Positions 48,968 through 53,592 of a DNA stretch of 64,000 nucleotides are shown in pieces. The notes below the pieces were generated by a model. It was not told the DNA's origin. It ran no database searches and saw only the letters and a program-made list of their open reading frames with translations. The stretch is from Streptomyces sp. WZ-12 (lineage in GTDB: Bacteria; Actinomycetota; Actinomycetes; Streptomycetales; Streptomycetaceae), in assembly GCF_028898845.1 (NCBI RefSeq), contig NZ_CP118574.1, positions 8,915,001 through 8,979,000 on the forward strand, read 5' to 3'. The translations under genes and the position numbers were made by a program. Positions within the stretch are counted from its first letter, which is position 1. Each line of letters begins with the position of its first letter.

Positions 48968-49000
48968 ACTTGCGTACCCACGCAAGTACGAGGGTAGGAT
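48968..49000 (+). promoter_or_regulatory. Promoter with perfect palindrome upstream of the plus-strand M-box
   Basis: ACTTGCGT-accc-ACGCAAGT (48968-48987) is a perfect 8-bp-arm palindrome. TTGCGT inside it can serve as a -35 box, with TAGGAT at 48995-49000 as -10 (19-bp spacer), so a bound repressor would block the promoter. A close relative of the palindrome precedes the second M-box on the other strand. Confidence 0.6.
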
Positions 49001-49025: not shown

Positions 49026-49200
49026 GAGGCACCTCGTTCGGTGAGGCGTCTTCGCGGACACAGGCCACTGACCCCACGACGTCGAGAGACGCCCAGGTTC
49101 AGGACAGGTCTCCCCGACCTAAGGGGTGACCCCAAGTGGCTTCCCCTGTACGGGGATTACGCCGTGGAGTGCCAAAGCTCTGACGAGTTGGGGTGAGCCA
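49026..49200 (+). promoter_or_regulatory. M-box (ykoK-type) magnesium riboswitch
   Basis: The core matches the M-box as I know it from ykoK/mgtE leaders: CTCGTTCGGTGAGGCGTCT near the start, ACGTCGAGAGACGCCCAGG in the middle, and GTGCCAAAGCTCTGACGA near the end, with GC stems between. M-boxes sense Mg2+ and turn downstream genes off when Mg2+ is plentiful. It is followed by a small ORF and an NRAMP-type transporter. A second, almost identical copy is at 53379-53545 on the minus strand. Confidence 0.85.
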
Positions 49201-49280
49201 GTCATCGTGGACTGGTCCGCTCTTTGCCGTGTCCGTTTGGCGCCCGCGTGCGCCCCGGCCGGAAGGAGGCGAGAGACACC

Positions 49281-49370
49281 ATGGACGGCCATTGCAGTAG
49301 TCCGGGCCACAGTCGGCCCCATATGCGTATGTCATCTCCGATGTCTTCTTCGACCTCCGGTACGCAGTAA
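49281..49370 (+). CDS. Small ORF between M-box and transporter (29 aa)
   Basis: ATG at 49281 preceded by GGAAGGAGGCGAGA. The peptide starts MDGHCSSPGHSRPHM and is Ser/Met-rich to its end, with no hydrophobic segment. A homologous small ORF with the same ribosome-binding context follows the second M-box (53198-53296, minus). The shared residues MDG, Cys-Ser-Ser, PGHSR and HM suggest it is truly translated and conserved. It may be a leader peptide coupling translation or Mg2+ state to expression of the transporter, or a small protein in its own right. Not previously known to me. Confidence 0.6.
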   Translation: MDGHCSSPGHSRPHMRMSSPMSSSTSGTQ

Positions 49371-49478
49371 CAACCTCCTGCGCGAGAGCACCCTCCCCCC
49401 ACGCACCCGTGCGGCCACCGGCCGTGCCGGGGCGCTGTGCTGCGCGTTCGCAGGGGGATCGCCGCTGCGTGCCCCAAA

Positions 49479-49502
49479 CCTCCCCCGTTGGGGGACGGGA
49501 GG
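49479..49502 (+). promoter_or_regulatory. Hairpin that can sequester the transporter ribosome binding site
   Basis: CCTCCC (49479-49484) is complementary to GGGAGG (49497-49502), the ribosome binding site of the transporter gene. An alternative CCCCCgttGGGGG pairing overlaps it. Translation of the upstream small ORF or the riboswitch state could shift between these forms (inference). Confidence 0.45.
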
Positions 49503-49507
49503 CTTTC

Positions 49508-51157
49508 ATGACCAACCTGACCACCACCGCCACGCCATCGACTCCGCCGCAGTCCAGCGCGGTGCTCGACGACGCCCACATCGGAGACATCCGCGGTGCG
49601 CTTGGCACCATCAGGGTCGACGACACCGCCCCGCGCCTGGGGCTCTCCGCCAAATTCAAGACGCTGCTCGCGATCGTCGGCCCCGGCCTGATCGTGATGG
49701 TCGGCGACAACGATGCCGGCGCCTTCGCCACCTACGGCCAGGCCGGCCAGAACTACGGCACCAGCCTGCTGTGGACCCTGCTGCTGCTCGTTCCCGTCCT
49801 GTACGTCAACCAGGAGATGGTGCTCCGACTCGGCGCCGTCACCGGGGTCGGGCACGCGCGCCTGATCCTGGAGCGGTTCGGCAAGTTCTGGGGCGCGTTC
49901 TCCGTCATCGACCTGTTCCTGCTCAACGCGCTGACGCTGGTCACGGAGTTCATCGGCATCACCATGGCCGCCGACTACCTGGGCCTGCCCAAGACCGGCT
50001 CGGTGATCCTGGCCGCCGCGATCATCATCGCGTCCGCGTTCACCGGTTCCTTCCGTCGCTTCGAGCGGATCGCCGTCGCGCTGTGCATCGGGTCGCTGCT
50101 CCTGGTCCCGCTCTACTTCATGCTCCACCCCAAGGCGTCGCAGATGGCGCACGGCTTCGTCGTCCCCGTCATCCCCGGCGGCAGCGGCGAGTTGGCCACG
50201 GTCATGCTGCTGATCATCGGCATCGTGGGCACTACGGTGGCGCCCTGGCAGTTGTTCTTCCAGCAGTCCTACGTCATCGACAAGCGCATCACCCCGCGCT
50301 TCATGAAGTACGAGAAGGCCGACCTGTGGATCGGCATCGCCATCGTGATCATCGGCGCCGCCGCCATGATGGGCCTGGTCGCCGCCGCCTTCGCCGGCAC
50401 CAAGGGCTTCGGCAACTTCACCGACACCGCGGGCCTGATCACCGGCATCGAGGCCAAGGCCGGAAAGGTGGCAGGCGTCCTCTTCGCCATCGCCCTGCTG
50501 GACGCGGCGATCATCGGCGCCTTCGCCGTCTCCCTGTCCACCGCCTACGCGATCGGCGACGTGTTCGGGATGAAGCACTCCCTGCACCGGGGCATCAAGG
50601 GAGCCAAGGGCTTCTACGCCGTCTACGCCGGCCTGGTCGCCGCGGCCGCCACCATCGTGCTGATCCCCGGCTCCCCGCTCGGCCTGCTCACCCAGGGCGT
50701 GCAGACCCTCGCCGGCGTGCTCCTGCCCTCCGCCACGGTCTTCCTGCTGCTGCTCTGCAACGACAAGCAGGTCCTCGGACCATGGGTGAACGGGCCCAAG
50801 ACCAACGCCTTCACCGCGGCGGTCGTCGGCGTCCTGGTGTCACTGTCGATCATCCTGACCGCCTCGGTGCTCTTCCCCGACATCAGCGCGAGCATGATCC
50901 TCGACATCATGGCCGGCTGCGGCGTCGCCGGGGTACTGGCCGCCGGCTACGCCTTCACCCGCCGGCGCACCGCCACCAAGGAAGACCCGATCGACCGCAC
51001 CGGCCGCGAGTCATGGCGCATGCCGCCGCTCGTCACGCTGACCCGACCCGCCATGTCCACCGGCCGCAAGCTGGGCATGGGCGCCCTGCGCACCTACCTG
51101 CTGATCGCGATGGTCCTCGTCGTCATCAAGATCGTGCAGGTCGCCCTCGGCAACTGA
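49508..51157 (+). CDS. NRAMP-family divalent metal transporter, probably of the magnesium-transporting (NRMT) branch
   Basis: 549 aa with eleven or so membrane helices after a 60-residue soluble N-terminus. It has the NRAMP fold, but the TM1 metal-site motif is GDNDAGA rather than DPGN, and the TM6 motif is TVAPWQLFFQQS rather than the MPH-type TVMPHNLYLHS. The Met that binds transition metals is thus Ala. These changes are those described for prokaryotic NRAMP-related Mg2+ transporters (known from work on an Eggerthella lenta protein). The M-box upstream supports Mg2+ as substrate. ATG 49508 with GGGAGG upstream. Last part is basic (~490-515) before a final helix. Confidence 0.88.
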   Translation: MTNLTTTATPSTPPQSSAVLDDAHIGDIRGALGTIRVDDTAPRLGLSAKFKTLLAIVGPGLIVMVGDNDAGAFATYGQAGQNYGTSLLWTLLLLVPVLYVNQEMVLRLGAVTGVGHARLILERFGKFWGAFSVIDLFLLNALTLVTEFIGITMAADYLGLPKTGSVILAAAIIIASAFTGSFRRFERIAVALCIGSLLLVPLYFMLHPKASQMAHGFVVPVIPGGSGELATVMLLIIGIVGTTVAPWQLFFQQSYVIDKRITPRFMKYEKADLWIGIAIVIIGAAAMMGLVAAAFAGTKGFGNFTDTAGLITGIEAKAGKVAGVLFAIALLDAAIIGAFAVSLSTAYAIGDVFGMKHSLHRGIKGAKGFYAVYAGLVAAAATIVLIPGSPLGLLTQGVQTLAGVLLPSATVFLLLLCNDKQVLGPWVNGPKTNAFTAAVVGVLVSLSIILTASVLFPDISASMILDIMAGCGVAGVLAAGYAFTRRRTATKEDPIDRTGRESWRMPPLVTLTRPAMSTGRKLGMGALRTYLLIAMVLVVIKIVQVALGN

Positions 51158-51262
51158 CCCACCCGCGCCGGCGCTTGACCATCCCCCGACCGGGGTGGCG
51201 GCGGGACCCCTCCCCACCCGCCGCCACCCCCCACCGCCCCCTCACGGAGGAGGGAGGCCCTC

Positions 51263-51598
51263 ATGCGCCTTCTCCCGCACCTCACCAAGCTCACCGCACC
51301 GGCCCGCCGGCGGCACCACGCCACCGACGACCGACCCGCCCCGCACACCACCCACCACTCTTGCCCACACCTCCAGTTGACCCTGCACGACGGCACCGAG
51401 CGGGACTACCTGCTCGACAGCCCCAACACCTGCCCCAGCCCCACGGGGCCGTGCGCCAGGTACGAACCGCGCATCCACCTTGCCTACCTCCTCGCCCAGC
51501 AAGGCCACGACGCCCACTGGCTCGCCCACTACGCCGACCTGCCGCTATCCGCGGCCGAGCGCATCACCGCCGCCGCCACCACACCCCCGGGCAGATAG
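51263..51598 (+). CDS. Small hypothetical protein downstream of the transporter
   Basis: 111 aa, ATG with CGGAGGAGGGAGG upstream. Basic N-terminus, His-rich stretch (HTTHHSCPHLQ, ~35-45), two further Cys in a CPSPTGPC context, then an amphipathic helix (LAYLLAQQGHDAHWLAHYADL). No family recognised. The His/Cys content could bind a metal (speculation). It lies about 105 bp after the transporter on the same strand and ends at the large terminator, so it belongs to the M-box transcript. Confidence 0.65.
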   Translation: MRLLPHLTKLTAPARRRHHATDDRPAPHTTHHSCPHLQLTLHDGTERDYLLDSPNTCPSPTGPCARYEPRIHLAYLLAQQGHDAHWLAHYADLPLSAAERITAAATTPPGR

Positions 51599-51608
51599 GG
51601 CCGACACA

Positions 51609-51661
51609 GCGAGGCGGTCGGCGACGCGGGCTCTCCGCCCCCGCGTCGCCGACCGCCTCGC
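51609..51661. terminator. 22-bp perfect hairpin between the two convergent M-box operons
   Basis: 51609-51630 and 51640-51661 are exact inverted repeats (GCGAGGCGGTC...), 9-base loop. It can end both the transporter transcript and the minus-strand regulator transcript. Confidence 0.85.
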
Positions 51662-51669
51662 TGCCGTAT

Positions 51670-52071
51670 CTACGCGTGTTGTCGTTCCGCCGCGTGCTCA
51701 ACCGCGCCGACCGGCCCCGTCGGTGCCGGACGGGCCGCCAGGTGCCGGGCGGCGGCGAGCAGCGACGGGAGGTGCGGGTTGGTGGTGCGGTAGAGCACGC
51801 GGTGGCCGCTGCGGCGGACCCCGACCAGGCCCGCGGCCCGCAGGCGCCCGAGGTGCTGGGAGACGGCCGCGTAGGGGGCGCCGACGCATTCCGTCAGCTC
51901 CCCGACGGCGAGCTCCTGGTCATCGGCCAGCGCCTGTAGCAACCGCAGCCGGATGGGGCCGGCCACCGCCTTCAACAACGCCGTCACGGCGGTGATTTCG
52001 GCGACCGTGAGCTCCGTGGTCGTCGTGCGCGCCGGAAGAAGGACAACGTCGGACTCAGTGAGCGCACGCAC
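51670..52071 (-). CDS. ArsR/SmtB-type winged-helix regulator
   Basis: 133 aa from a GTG at 52071. Typical ArsR DNA-binding region: LLKAVAGPIRLRLLQALADDQELAVGEL...GAPYAAVSQHLGRLRAAGLVGVRRSGHRVLYR. A single Cys (ELTECVGAP, the place of the metal-binding ELCVCDL motif of ArsR/SmtB) and a C-terminal His cluster (HLPSLLAAARH; EHAAERQH) could contribute to metal sensing. The start overlaps the upstream ACT-like gene by 17 bp. Candidate binder of the palindromes upstream of both M-boxes (inference). Confidence 0.85.
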   Translation of the reverse strand: MRALTESDVVLLPARTTTTELTVAEITAVTALLKAVAGPIRLRLLQALADDQELAVGELTECVGAPYAAVSQHLGRLRAAGLVGVRRSGHRVLYRTTNPHLPSLLAAARHLAARPAPTGPVGAVEHAAERQHA

Positions 52072-52444
52072 CGGACAACCCCCTCTCCATGGCGGAGGTG
52101 AGGGAACGCGGATCGTCGTGCCGGTCCCGGTGCCAGTGCAGGTCGCGCACGGGCGGCATGCCGGAGAGCATGTCGACGAGTCGGTCCAGCAGGCCGGTCT
52201 CCGTGCCGTCCAGGGTGACCAACATCTGCAGGTGGGTGGTGAACACGTCGGACGGGTCGACGCGCACGGCCTCGACGCGCGCACCGGGCCGGCTCAGGGC
52301 CAGCACGCACAGCGCGCGCACCTGGGTTTCGGCACCCTGGTCGCAATGGACGTGGAGGGTGACCAGCTCGTGGGGCCGGACGGCCGTCGCCTCGGTGCCG
52401 GGGCGCTTGGTCTGCTTGAGGAGGGTACGGGGCAGGAATCGCAT
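52055..52444 (-). CDS. ACT-like domain protein resembling the C-terminal part of MgtC
   Basis: 129 aa (ATG 52444; an ATG seven codons earlier has no ribosome binding site). VTLHVHCDQGAETQVRALCVLALSRPG...VEAVRVDP...LQMLVTLDGTETGLLDRLVDMLSGMPPVRDLHWH has the beta-alpha-beta pattern of ACT domains, and its ending (pairwise conflict with a Trp-containing last strand) recalls the cytoplasmic tail of MgtC/SapB proteins. No membrane segments, so the MgtC channel-like part is missing. Given the M-box context, a soluble regulatory remnant of an MgtC is attractive but uncertain. Confidence 0.6.
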   Translation of the reverse strand: MRFLPRTLLKQTKRPGTEATAVRPHELVTLHVHCDQGAETQVRALCVLALSRPGARVEAVRVDPSDVFTTHLQMLVTLDGTETGLLDRLVDMLSGMPPVRDLHWHRDRHDDPRSLTSAMERGLSGACAH

Positions 52445-52520
52445 GACGGTGGGTATCCCTTGCATGGTCAGCGTGACGGGACGGCGAAGCCCAACGAGCC
52501 GGTCGCCGGGCTTCCTTCAT

Positions 52521-52580
52521 CAGGGGCGGGGCCCTGTCTGTGGCCGACGGTCAGGGGCGGGGCCTGGCCGTGGCCGACGG
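52521..52580. repeat. 31-bp tandem direct repeat at the end of the winged-helix gene
   Basis: CAGGGGCGGGGCC begins both units (52521 and 52552), and both contain GTGGCCGACGG. The right copy is the coding 3' end including the stop of the minus-strand regulator; the left copy lies just beyond the stop. Confidence 0.6.
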
Positions 52581-53003
52581 CTCGAAGGCGTAGCCGACCT
52601 GCCGTACGGTGCGGATCAACGCCCGATGCCCGGGGCCCAGCTTCCGACGCAGACGGGCGATGTGAACGTCGACCGTGCGCATGTCCCCTACGGCGGTCTG
52701 CTGCCACACCAGCGCCATCAGCTGCTCACGGCTGTAGACCCGGCGCCGGTTGGCCATCAGATGGGCCAGCAGCTCGAACTCCATGCAGGTGAGCTTCAGT
52801 TGCTGCCCGCCGACCGAAACCCGTCGGGTCTCGCAGTCGACGATGAGGCCGCGAATGCGGTGGATCGGCGCCCTGGGCAGGTCCGCGGGCTCGTGCGGCG
52901 ACGACAGCGGGCGCGGAACGGTCGTGTGGCGTCGGCGCAGGTTGGAAGTCCGGGCCAGCAAGGCGTGACGGACCGGTCGGTGGTGGAGGTTCAGGAGGTT
53001 CAT
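52551..53003 (-). CDS. OmpR/PhoB-type winged-helix protein without receiver domain
   Basis: 150 aa from ATG 53003 (GAGGGAAGC upstream). A basic N-terminal ~50 residues is followed by a complete OmpR-type DNA-binding domain: LIVDCETRRVSVGGQQLKLTCMEFELLAHLMANRR, YSREQLMALVW, TVDVHIARLRRKLG, IRTVRQVGYAF. There is no phosphoacceptor receiver, so activity would depend on level or other inputs. First larger gene after the minus-strand M-box and small ORF, 194 bp downstream of the latter, hence probably controlled by Mg2+. Confidence 0.85.
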   Translation of the reverse strand: MNLLNLHHRPVRHALLARTSNLRRRHTTVPRPLSSPHEPADLPRAPIHRIRGLIVDCETRRVSVGGQQLKLTCMEFELLAHLMANRRRVYSREQLMALVWQQTAVGDMRTVDVHIARLRRKLGPGHRALIRTVRQVGYAFEPSATARPRP

Positions 53004-53197
53004 GGCTGCTTCCCTCGGATCGGGGTAGTGGTGGCGAAGGCCATGGCGAGACCCCGCCACGTGCCTGGTCTGGGAGAGAGGTTGCGGGCGTGCGGAAGCT
53101 GCCCGCCCTGCGAGCGCGCAGCCCGACCACCCGGGACGGCGAAAGCCGCACGGGTGCTGGCGGGGAGTGTTCGCGAACGCGTCGGGAGCGGGAGTGG

Positions 53198-53296
53198 TTA
53201 CCGCATACCGGAGGCCAAGAAAGTCATATGGGTAAACGACCTACTGTGCCCCGGACCGCCGCAACCATCGCAACTACTGCAACTACTGCCGTCCAT
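53198..53296 (-). CDS. Small Cys-rich ORF after the second M-box (32 aa)
   Basis: ATG at 53296 behind CCGGAAGGAGGCGAGAAAC, TAA at 53198-53200. The peptide begins MDGSSCSSCDGCGGPGHSR and has three Cys spaced CxxCxxC. The plus-strand counterpart (49281-49370) shares MDG, CSS, PGHSR and HM but has only one Cys. Same position relative to the riboswitch and same ribosome binding site. The CxxCxxC could bind metal (speculative). Confidence 0.6.
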   Translation of the reverse strand: MDGSSCSSCDGCGGPGHSRSFTHMTFLASGMR

Positions 53297-53378
53297 GTTT
53301 CTCGCCTCCTTCCGGCCGGGGCGCGCGAGCGCGCCGTACGACTCGGCAGCGAGCGGACCGGCCCGGACGGCCGGTTCA

Positions 53379-53545
53379 CCCCTACTCGTCAGAGCTTTGG
53401 CACTGCACGGCGTAATCCCCGTACGGGGAAGCCACTTGGGGTCACCCCTTAGGTCGGGGAGACCTGTCCTGAACCTGGGCGTCTCTCGACGTCGTGGGGT
53501 CAGTGGCCTGTGTCCGTGCAGACGCCTCACCGAACGAGGTGCCTT
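53379..53545 (-). promoter_or_regulatory. Second M-box magnesium riboswitch (inverted copy)
   Basis: Nearly base-for-base the reverse complement of the plus-strand M-box, differing at a few positions only (for example TCTGCACGG versus TCTTCGCGG, and CCCCGTACGGGG versus CCCCTGTACGGGG). Conserved core blocks are intact. Precedes the Cys-rich small ORF and the winged-helix/ACT/ArsR genes. Convergent with the first M-box operon. Confidence 0.82.
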
Positions 53546-53572: not shown

Positions 53573-53592
53573 ACTTGCACATCAACGCAAGT
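53573..53592. promoter_or_regulatory. Palindrome upstream of the second M-box
   Basis: Read on the minus strand, ACTTGCGT-tgat-GTGCAAGT; the arms match over ACTTGC/GCAAGT. Nearly the same as the perfect palindrome at 48968-48987, and at a comparable distance upstream of the riboswitch. Confidence 0.55.

Follow-up and report, generated by a model that had tools for sequence, protein, structure and literature searches.

A leader open reading frame of the Rv1805A kind is widespread behind M-boxes in Actinomycetes and may be under their translational control

The window analysed here, 64,000 nucleotides of Streptomyces sp. WZ-12 DNA (assembly GCF_028898845.1, contig NZ_CP118574.1, positions 8,915,001 to 8,979,000), holds two M-box magnesium riboswitches, each followed by a small open reading frame (ORF). 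We find that this leader ORF is widespread in Actinomycetes and of the same kind as the upstream ORF Rv1805A of Mycobacterium tuberculosis, and we infer that the M-box controls its translation. A preliminary description of the window had already pointed out both riboswitches and both ORFs, and all four are where it placed them. The M-boxes, at 49026..49199 (+) and 53373..53545 (-), are the only matches above Rfam cut-offs in the window; they score 131.7 and 138.9 bits in cmscan against a cut-off of 44 and cover model positions 1-169, which places them in RF00380. Small ORF 1, MDGHCSSPGHSRPHMRMSSPMSSSTSGTQ, has 29 codons plus TAA (49281..49370, +), and small ORF 2, MDGSSCSSCDGCGGPGHSRSFTHMTFLASGMR, has 32 codons plus TAA (53198..53296, -). 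Each is preceded by the Shine-Dalgarno site AAGGAGG (49263..49269, + and 53305..53311, -), and GGAAGGAGGCGAGA stands 5' of both. The two leaders are divergently oriented; the identity of the two copies is 167/173 in the M-box, 61/76 in the spacer and 69/85 in the ORF.

To gather other M-boxes, RF00380 was scanned against overlapping genome sets, two drawn from the genus (101 and 392 genomes) and one each from the order (293), the class (394) and the phylum (396); because the larger scans scored six to nine candidates per genome (up to 24 in one), the rates given here are lower bounds. The resulting set comprised 140 M-box loci across Actinomycetota, with a partial match in one genome (L261 in G1254) and one match below the cut-off left out. 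At each locus we took, without regard to any motif, the ORF of 12-60 codons with the strongest Shine-Dalgarno site lying 15-180 nucleotides behind the M-box, and afterwards applied a regular expression for the motif. That expression was composed after sequences had been seen; the rule for picking ORFs is independent of it. A related ORF was present at 93 of the 140 loci (91/114 in the window's class and 2/26 beyond it), against two of 2760 dinucleotide shuffles (an ORF of any kind was picked in 161 of them) and four of 546 other genomic stretches. By family, the counts were 45/53 in f1, the window's own, 12/15 in f3, 28/35 in f6 (taken as Mycobacteriaceae), 3/4 in f19, 3/4 in f20 (taken as Frankia and kin) and 0/3 in f21. 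The proposal that a conserved, translated-looking small ORF under selection is tied to M-boxes in many actinobacteria, which hinged on homologues behind other M-boxes, is borne out by these counts. Among the misses in f1, five encode related-looking peptides (L003, L004, L023, L032 and L235), one was masked (L020) and two had no related ORF (L026 and L027). At two loci of a single family beyond the class (L208 and L213), a 44-codon ORF beginning MESDPGHRC or MESDPGSRC follows the M-box, with a protein that by eye is Nramp-like next in L208; the likeness to SPGHS may be due to chance.

An exact-pattern scan of named genomes found at least 120 stretches. Among the matches listed, the ORF occurs in Streptomyces, Kitasatospora, Streptacidiphilus, Streptantibioticus, Actinacidiphila, Actinoallomurus, Streptosporangiaceae, Frankia, Protofrankia and Mycobacterium, and more distant forms occur in Kutzneria. 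Single genomes can hold many copies: one (G191) has six M-boxes with an ORF of its own at each. The 9.5 Mb genome from which the window comes likewise has six M-boxes, and behind each comes a start codon that has a Shine-Dalgarno-like site. Of the encoded peptides, four plainly belong to one family (L001, L002, L005 and L006), and two are diverged (L003, MSPWHSPDP.. with a TTG start, and L004, MVPDGHTRPH..). No copy lacking an M-box could be recognised in this genome in a search allowing three mismatches, which gave nine matches, three of them at M-boxes, against 31 for a reversed control, and whose sensitivity was partial, with three of the M-box ORFs missed. In two plasmid records, one of them hardly annotated and with an incomplete gene table, public annotation has no feature at the ORF match.

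The reading frame of the ORF is conserved to a degree that its peptide is not. In 87 of 90 loci, the motif CCGGGCCAY lies 12, 15, 18, 21, 24, 39 or 42 nucleotides from the GGAGG-preceded start, always a multiple of three; in the three exceptions (L043, L044 and L114) the script had chosen a TTG or GTG five bases ahead of an in-frame ATG. The distance from the motif to a terminal Gly-Thr-Arg-stop takes five values and is a multiple of three in 62 of 62 cases. Across 94 distinct Streptomyces-type ORFs, synonymous divergence (pS) in the core was 0.26 and non-synonymous divergence (pN) 0.145, while the 12 codons behind the core gave 0.41 and 0.46. The frame is held, the core peptide is held moderately, and most of the tail is hardly held at all. 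The C-terminus G[T/M/A][R/Q]-stop was found at 73 of 78 Nramp-type loci and at none of 16 MgtE-type loci. Of the motifs to which the preliminary description drew attention, CxxCxxC is real in the copy starting at 53296, where it forms an insert; as a motif of the family it was rejected, being present in one of 22 aligned peptides, and the HM pairing does not characterise the family either.

That description had also suggested selection for a peptide. The core values (pN below pS) agree with this in part; selection also acts beyond the peptide, in that the serine codons and the Streptomyces-type stem-loop are held at the nucleotide level. Where serine is encoded within the first 18 codons, AGT is used in 130 of 200 cases (65%) in f1 ORFs, compared with 2.7% of 888 in neighbouring long ORFs, in 67 of 169 in f6 (background 4.7% of 788) and in 26 of 45 in f3 (background 6% of 268). 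The serine codon after histidine in the 94 Streptomyces-type ORFs is AGT in 65 and TCT in one, never AGC, and is replaced non-synonymously in 28, mostly by CAT, AAA or CAA. At the matching serine place AGT is found in 27 of 29 f6 ORFs; in f21 the place chosen by the script is TCA in all three. The core of the Streptomyces-type ORF can further form a stem-loop, GGGCC-N6-GGCCC, which in ORF 1 is GGGCC-ACAGTC-GGCCC over codons 8-13 (49304..49319, +) and in ORF 2 is weaker (GGGGC..GGTCG). In 73 sequences, 94.8% of its cells are paired, a value reached by 52 of 500 shuffles, and two pairs show two-sided changes in three cells (9/500 and 4/500 shuffles as high). What unites the ORF types is the use of AGU together with the frame, and not a single stem-loop.

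The leader between the aptamer and the ORF can form two alternative helices. Of 78 leaders, alignment A1 contains 73 (L106, L108, L112, L116 and L151 left out) and alignment A2 contains 35. In the first helix (ON), GGGGUG-A-RCCGGYC at the 3' end of the aptamer pairs with GRCCGGU-C-CGCUCC. In A1, 91.1% of its cells are paired, compared with 86.5% in shuffles (0/500 as high) and at most 53.9% when the arms are slid; six pairs show two-sided changes (4/500 shuffles as high), in 50 cells (0/500), and no shuffle reached its score (0/500). This is the anti-anti-Shine-Dalgarno/anti-Shine-Dalgarno helix of a pe20-type translational M-box. In copy 1, the last ten bases of the M-box, GGGGTGAGCC (49190-49199), double as the start of its 5' arm, and the anti-Shine-Dalgarno stretch GGTCCGCTCTTTGCCG (49214..49229, +) could pair either with the 3' end of the M-box or with the Shine-Dalgarno site of ORF 1; the corresponding stretch of copy 2 is GGTCCGCTCGCTGCCG (53344..53359, -). 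In the second helix (OFF), CGCUCCUU-G-CCG pairs with CGG-AAGGAG over the Shine-Dalgarno site, with 92.5% of cells paired and at most 62.0% when slid. Because GGGGUG also belongs to the closing stem of the M-box in the cmscan alignment, Mg2+ binding should free the anti-Shine-Dalgarno stretch and close the ORF. The covarying anti-sequestor helix, together with a possible sequestor over the Shine-Dalgarno site, suggests that the M-box probably controls translation of the ORF. Between the ORF stop and the Nramp start no consensus fold was found (energy -1.6, covariation term 0.29), and we therefore claim no second hairpin there.

On balance, we lean towards a reading in which the two ORFs of the window are leader ORFs that form the output of a translational M-box, with a block of codons acting in cis. 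The analysis shows the ORF, its frame, the conserved pairing of both helices, the constraint on nucleotides and the existence of places without a detectable M-box; the direction of switching, the part played by Rho and what the codon block does are more conjectural. With Mg2+ bound, the closing stem of the aptamer would retain GGGGUG, CGCUCCUU would pair with the Shine-Dalgarno site of the ORF, and the ORF would stay untranslated. At low Mg2+, GGGGUGARCCGGYC would pair with GRCCGGU-C-CGCUCC and expose the Shine-Dalgarno site. Translation of the ORF would then prevent termination of the leader transcript, presumably by Rho as in M. tuberculosis, and allow the downstream Mg2+ gene to be transcribed. 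The first codons, S-P-G-[H/D]-S-[R/P] with serines as AGU, would be a separate conserved element, one whose effect is exerted in cis on the ribosome during translation and which can outlast the aptamer.

Several observations weigh against this reading. The OFF helix is nearly devoid of covariation: it has one pair with two-sided changes (481/500 shuffles reach this) in six cells (37/500), and its pair types are reached by 371/500 shuffles, its paired cells by 18/500 and its score by 26/500. A fixed Shine-Dalgarno site would give the same result, yet the helix offers no independent proof. A stem-loop shared by all ORF types was rejected as the conserved element, since folding of codons 2-18 relative to synonymous variants gave z values of -0.68 in the Streptomyces type, +0.81 in mycobacteria and +0.43 in f3. 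The ORF does not follow every M-box: L026 and L027 have none that is related, L004 and L023 have weak ones, nothing was picked at four f6 loci, and the ORF is missing from 24 of the 26 loci beyond the class. In M. tuberculosis, moreover, the main termination site lies upstream of the upstream ORF, according to the available part of PMC12810186.

An alternative we consider somewhat unlikely is that the ORF encodes a small protein that works in trans and affects a transporter, the membrane or Mg2+ homeostasis; the peptide would then be what is conserved, with the M-box simply switching the gene. The kept frame and the excess of pS over pN in the core would be expected of such a protein, as would a C-terminus that follows the Nramp-type loci and is missing from the MgtE-type ones. 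The ORF also occurs without an M-box, and M. tuberculosis has a paralogue, Rv0115A, that is independent of the M-box; a role around PE20-PPE31 is proposed by the authors (PMC12810186, available part). However, behind the core pN is not below pS, the codons at the serine after histidine indicate that the residue is not what is held, and G191 keeps a separate copy at each of its six M-boxes. The genes behind the ORF argue in the same direction. In a scan of 26 proteins, either downstream or neighbouring, the ORFs that clearly belong to the group stood ahead of Nramp (L005), MgtE (L017, L194), MgtC (L069), CorA (L074, L135), P-type ATPase (L098), PE (L064) and PPE (L087) proteins; the small proteins without a Pfam match of the L061 type may be Rv1535-like, and an ABC permease (L128) was found behind a distant form of the ORF only. 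One leader ORF ahead of so many unrelated proteins speaks against a subunit of one transporter, and for action in cis over a single protein partner. Ten of the twelve places without an M-box, described next, are likewise still ahead of an Mg2+ gene. Action of the ORF in cis is the most likely case.

These twelve places emerged from a search of 382 genomes of the genus with a 24-base core pattern, allowing two mismatches. It returned 36 places, 24 of them behind known M-boxes and 12, in 10 genomes, without an M-box by the Rfam cut-off. Eleven of the 12 also have no Rfam match at E 0.05, in a check that took in all except L289, where the sole M-box match sits on the other strand. At every one of the 12, the frame is open and the start is preceded by GGAGG, neither of which was demanded by the search. 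Typed by likeness to the scanned proteins, the next gene is MgtE-like in eight, Nramp in one (L302) and MgtC in one (L304), with no type assigned for L289 and L306. By eye, L302 and L303 have large internal deletions of the aptamer, and L294 and L301 retain part of its 5' half. Between L274 and L279, identity is 49/76 in the leader, 15/17 in the Shine-Dalgarno site and start, 25/27 in codons 2-10 and 44/57 in the rest of the ORF; between L279 and L286 it is 47/71, 17/18, 27/27 and 42/57. Because the search pattern spans codons 3-10 of this ORF type, the identity of codons 2-10 is partly built in, which counts against our reading; this does not apply to the Shine-Dalgarno site, the start, the frame or the remainder of the ORF, which lie outside the pattern. 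The evidence for retention of the ORF in the absence of the riboswitch is moderate, not decisive. Since the ORF persists in some genomes where the switch is gone, it may serve in regulation independently. A recurrent core match with three mismatches, AGTAGTCCTTGCCGTAGTCGGCCC, was set aside, one example (L275) having no such leader. Separately, L026 has an M-box and an Nramp-like frame and no related small ORF, and L289, next to it in divergent orientation, combines the ORF with an anti-Shine-Dalgarno-like stretch and has no M-box on its own strand. In a retrieval of MgtE from 40 genomes of the genus, the window's included, the 42 matches listed were 23-36% identical and are other MgtE paralogues; at none of 30 loci of these distantly related paralogues did the ORF core score above 15/18.

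A regulatory job for the ORF could take the form of two stacked sensors, which we regard as unlikely: the M-box, and an ORF whose AGU-coded first codons would sense Mg2+ or the state of the ribosome through translation, like MgtL with a different code, the second sensor alone regulating mgtE or mgtC in the Streptomyces lines that lack the aptamer. Quite unlikely is a reading of the places without an M-box as relics in decay, the block being functional only together with the riboswitch. The deletions and aptamer remnants just described would fit recent losses, and conservation of the core is partly a product of the search; yet the frame is intact at 12/12 places, and outside the pattern the Shine-Dalgarno site and start, and the rest of the ORF, are better kept in both comparisons than the leaders. 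Finally, that the ORF is a by-product of a conserved RNA piece of the expression platform, its translation being irrelevant, would agree with the strong synonymous constraint and the well-paired Streptomyces-type stem-loop and is nonetheless very unlikely, given the whole-codon spacing, the start, Shine-Dalgarno site and frame intact at all 12 places without an M-box, the lack of the stem-loop in mycobacteria and the translation of the mycobacterial counterpart (PMC12810186, available part).

The two leaders of the window precede different genes, so the ORF's placement between riboswitch and transporter, as first described, holds for copy 1 and not for copy 2. Copy 1 has the order M-box, small ORF, Nramp-family gene (49508..51157, +; PF01566, E 4.6e-76). 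The nearest solved relative of its product is the NRMT-like 7qia (E 3.6e-46, compared with 1.8e-12 for the best MntH), which we take to be Eggerthella lenta NRMT, so it is nearer NRMT than MntH. Copy 2 is followed by a stand-alone OmpR-type DNA-binding domain protein (52551..53003, -; PF00486, E 6.6e-26), a protein with only the C-terminal domain of MgtC/SapB (52055..52465, -; PF21770, E 1.8e-6, 28.8 bits against a cut-off of 27) and an ArsR-type regulator (51670-52086). An OmpR DNA-binding domain without a receiver shares an M-box with an MgtC C-terminal domain without a membrane part, and at L009 and L030 the first gene looks similar to that of copy 2. Beside the Nramp gene, 51263-51598 (+) encodes a 111-amino-acid protein, CPH..TLHDGTERDYLLDSP..YLLAQQGHDAHWLAHYADLP, with no Pfam or NCBIfam match; small proteins that resemble it by eye are encoded first behind the ORF at L058, L077 (second M-box), L090, L106 and L149. 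A 16-bp palindrome, TTGC-N8-GCAA, lies in the promoter region of both leaders (48970-48985 and 53575-53590); a search with spacers of 6-10 gave no further instance in the 64 kb. In f1 it stands ahead of 34 of 53 M-boxes (1.1% in mononucleotide shuffles), compared with 2/35 in f6, 0/14 in f3, 0/4 in f19 and 0/4 in f20, and the leader of L304, a place without an M-box, has it too. The palindrome looks like an operator, for which the ArsR-type regulator would be a candidate.

Compared with known systems, the ORF recalls MgtL and CorL of Salmonella and E. coli in being a short ORF in the leader of an Mg2+ transporter; for these, proline or acidic residues are important and Rho is involved (PMC11552253, available part). 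Efficient translation of mgtL represses the transporter, whereas here translation of the ORF is predicted to accompany expression, and the same part of that source names no M-box for them. As the preliminary description had noted, the sequence differs from MgtL, and by eye there is no likeness to MgtL or CorL. The cases of the Nramp-related magnesium transporter NrmT share with copy 1, whose protein is nearest 7qia, an M-box ahead of an Nramp-related gene; they come mostly from Clostridia and Deltaproteobacteria, have an intrinsic terminator in the model, and have no leader ORF named in the available part of PMC4072509. Among the titles and abstract beginnings listed for open-licence PMC papers (20 of 517 in one case), none concerned such an ORF outside mycobacteria, and of the eight upstream ORF candidates counted by a noncoding RNA survey, none that is named in the available part of PMC11109978 is this ORF.

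The closest likeness is to M. tuberculosis pe20, where a translational M-box controls the conserved upstream ORF2 (Rv1805A), as supported by reporters, with translation shown by reporters and ribosome profiling (D'Halluin et al., RNA, February 2026; PMC12810186, available part). An ORF of this kind is therefore not undescribed, as had first been supposed. Both systems combine an M-box, an anti-anti-Shine-Dalgarno at the aptamer end, an anti-Shine-Dalgarno, a strong Shine-Dalgarno site, a short conserved ORF and then an Mg2+-related operon, and M. tuberculosis likewise has a copy independent of the M-box, Rv0115A. They differ in the N-terminus (MD..SSPGHSRP here, MSPGDSP in mycobacteria), in the downstream genes and in the ORF stem-loop, which is not common to them. 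Proline at position 7, present in 23 of 31 mycobacterial picks, is not found in the window copies, which have it at 8 and 15. Homology of the peptides by profile was unsupported: hhalign of 22 Streptomyces-type against 15 mycobacterial peptides, chosen by hand, detected no relation (probability 0.3). At the DNA level, we searched for the 18-base Streptomyces core in the 200 nucleotides behind each M-box, with the f6 loci as the mycobacterial side. The best match fell within the ORF and in frame in 49/52 (f1), 11/15 (f3), 29/35 (f6), 4/4 (f19), 3/3 (f20) and 3/3 (f21) cases, compared with 1/26 beyond the class, and exceeded the 99% shuffle level in 47/52, 9/15, 14/35, 1/4, 3/3, 0/3 and 0/26; the core is thus in frame in the Rv1805A-type leader ORFs as well. 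Frankia ORFs (MSPGHSPRLSW) look intermediate.

What is new relative to the mycobacterial case is the spread of the ORF, the AGU constraint, the several unrelated Mg2+ gene families behind it and its occurrence without an aptamer (12 of 36 Streptomyces core matches). Streptomyces offers harmless laboratory hosts in which the role of the ORF can be tested, with the fixed AGU codons as a concrete target for recoding, and leaders that have the ORF and no riboswitch that can be detected amount to natural experiments by which its function could be told apart from the aptamer's. The Rv1805A peptide was termed mycobacteria-specific (PMC12810186, available part); position, frame and DNA core, as distinct from a profile-proven peptide family, argue instead for one leader-ORF lineage wider than mycobacteria, which would make what seemed a peculiarity of mycobacteria a feature of Mg2+ control across the class.

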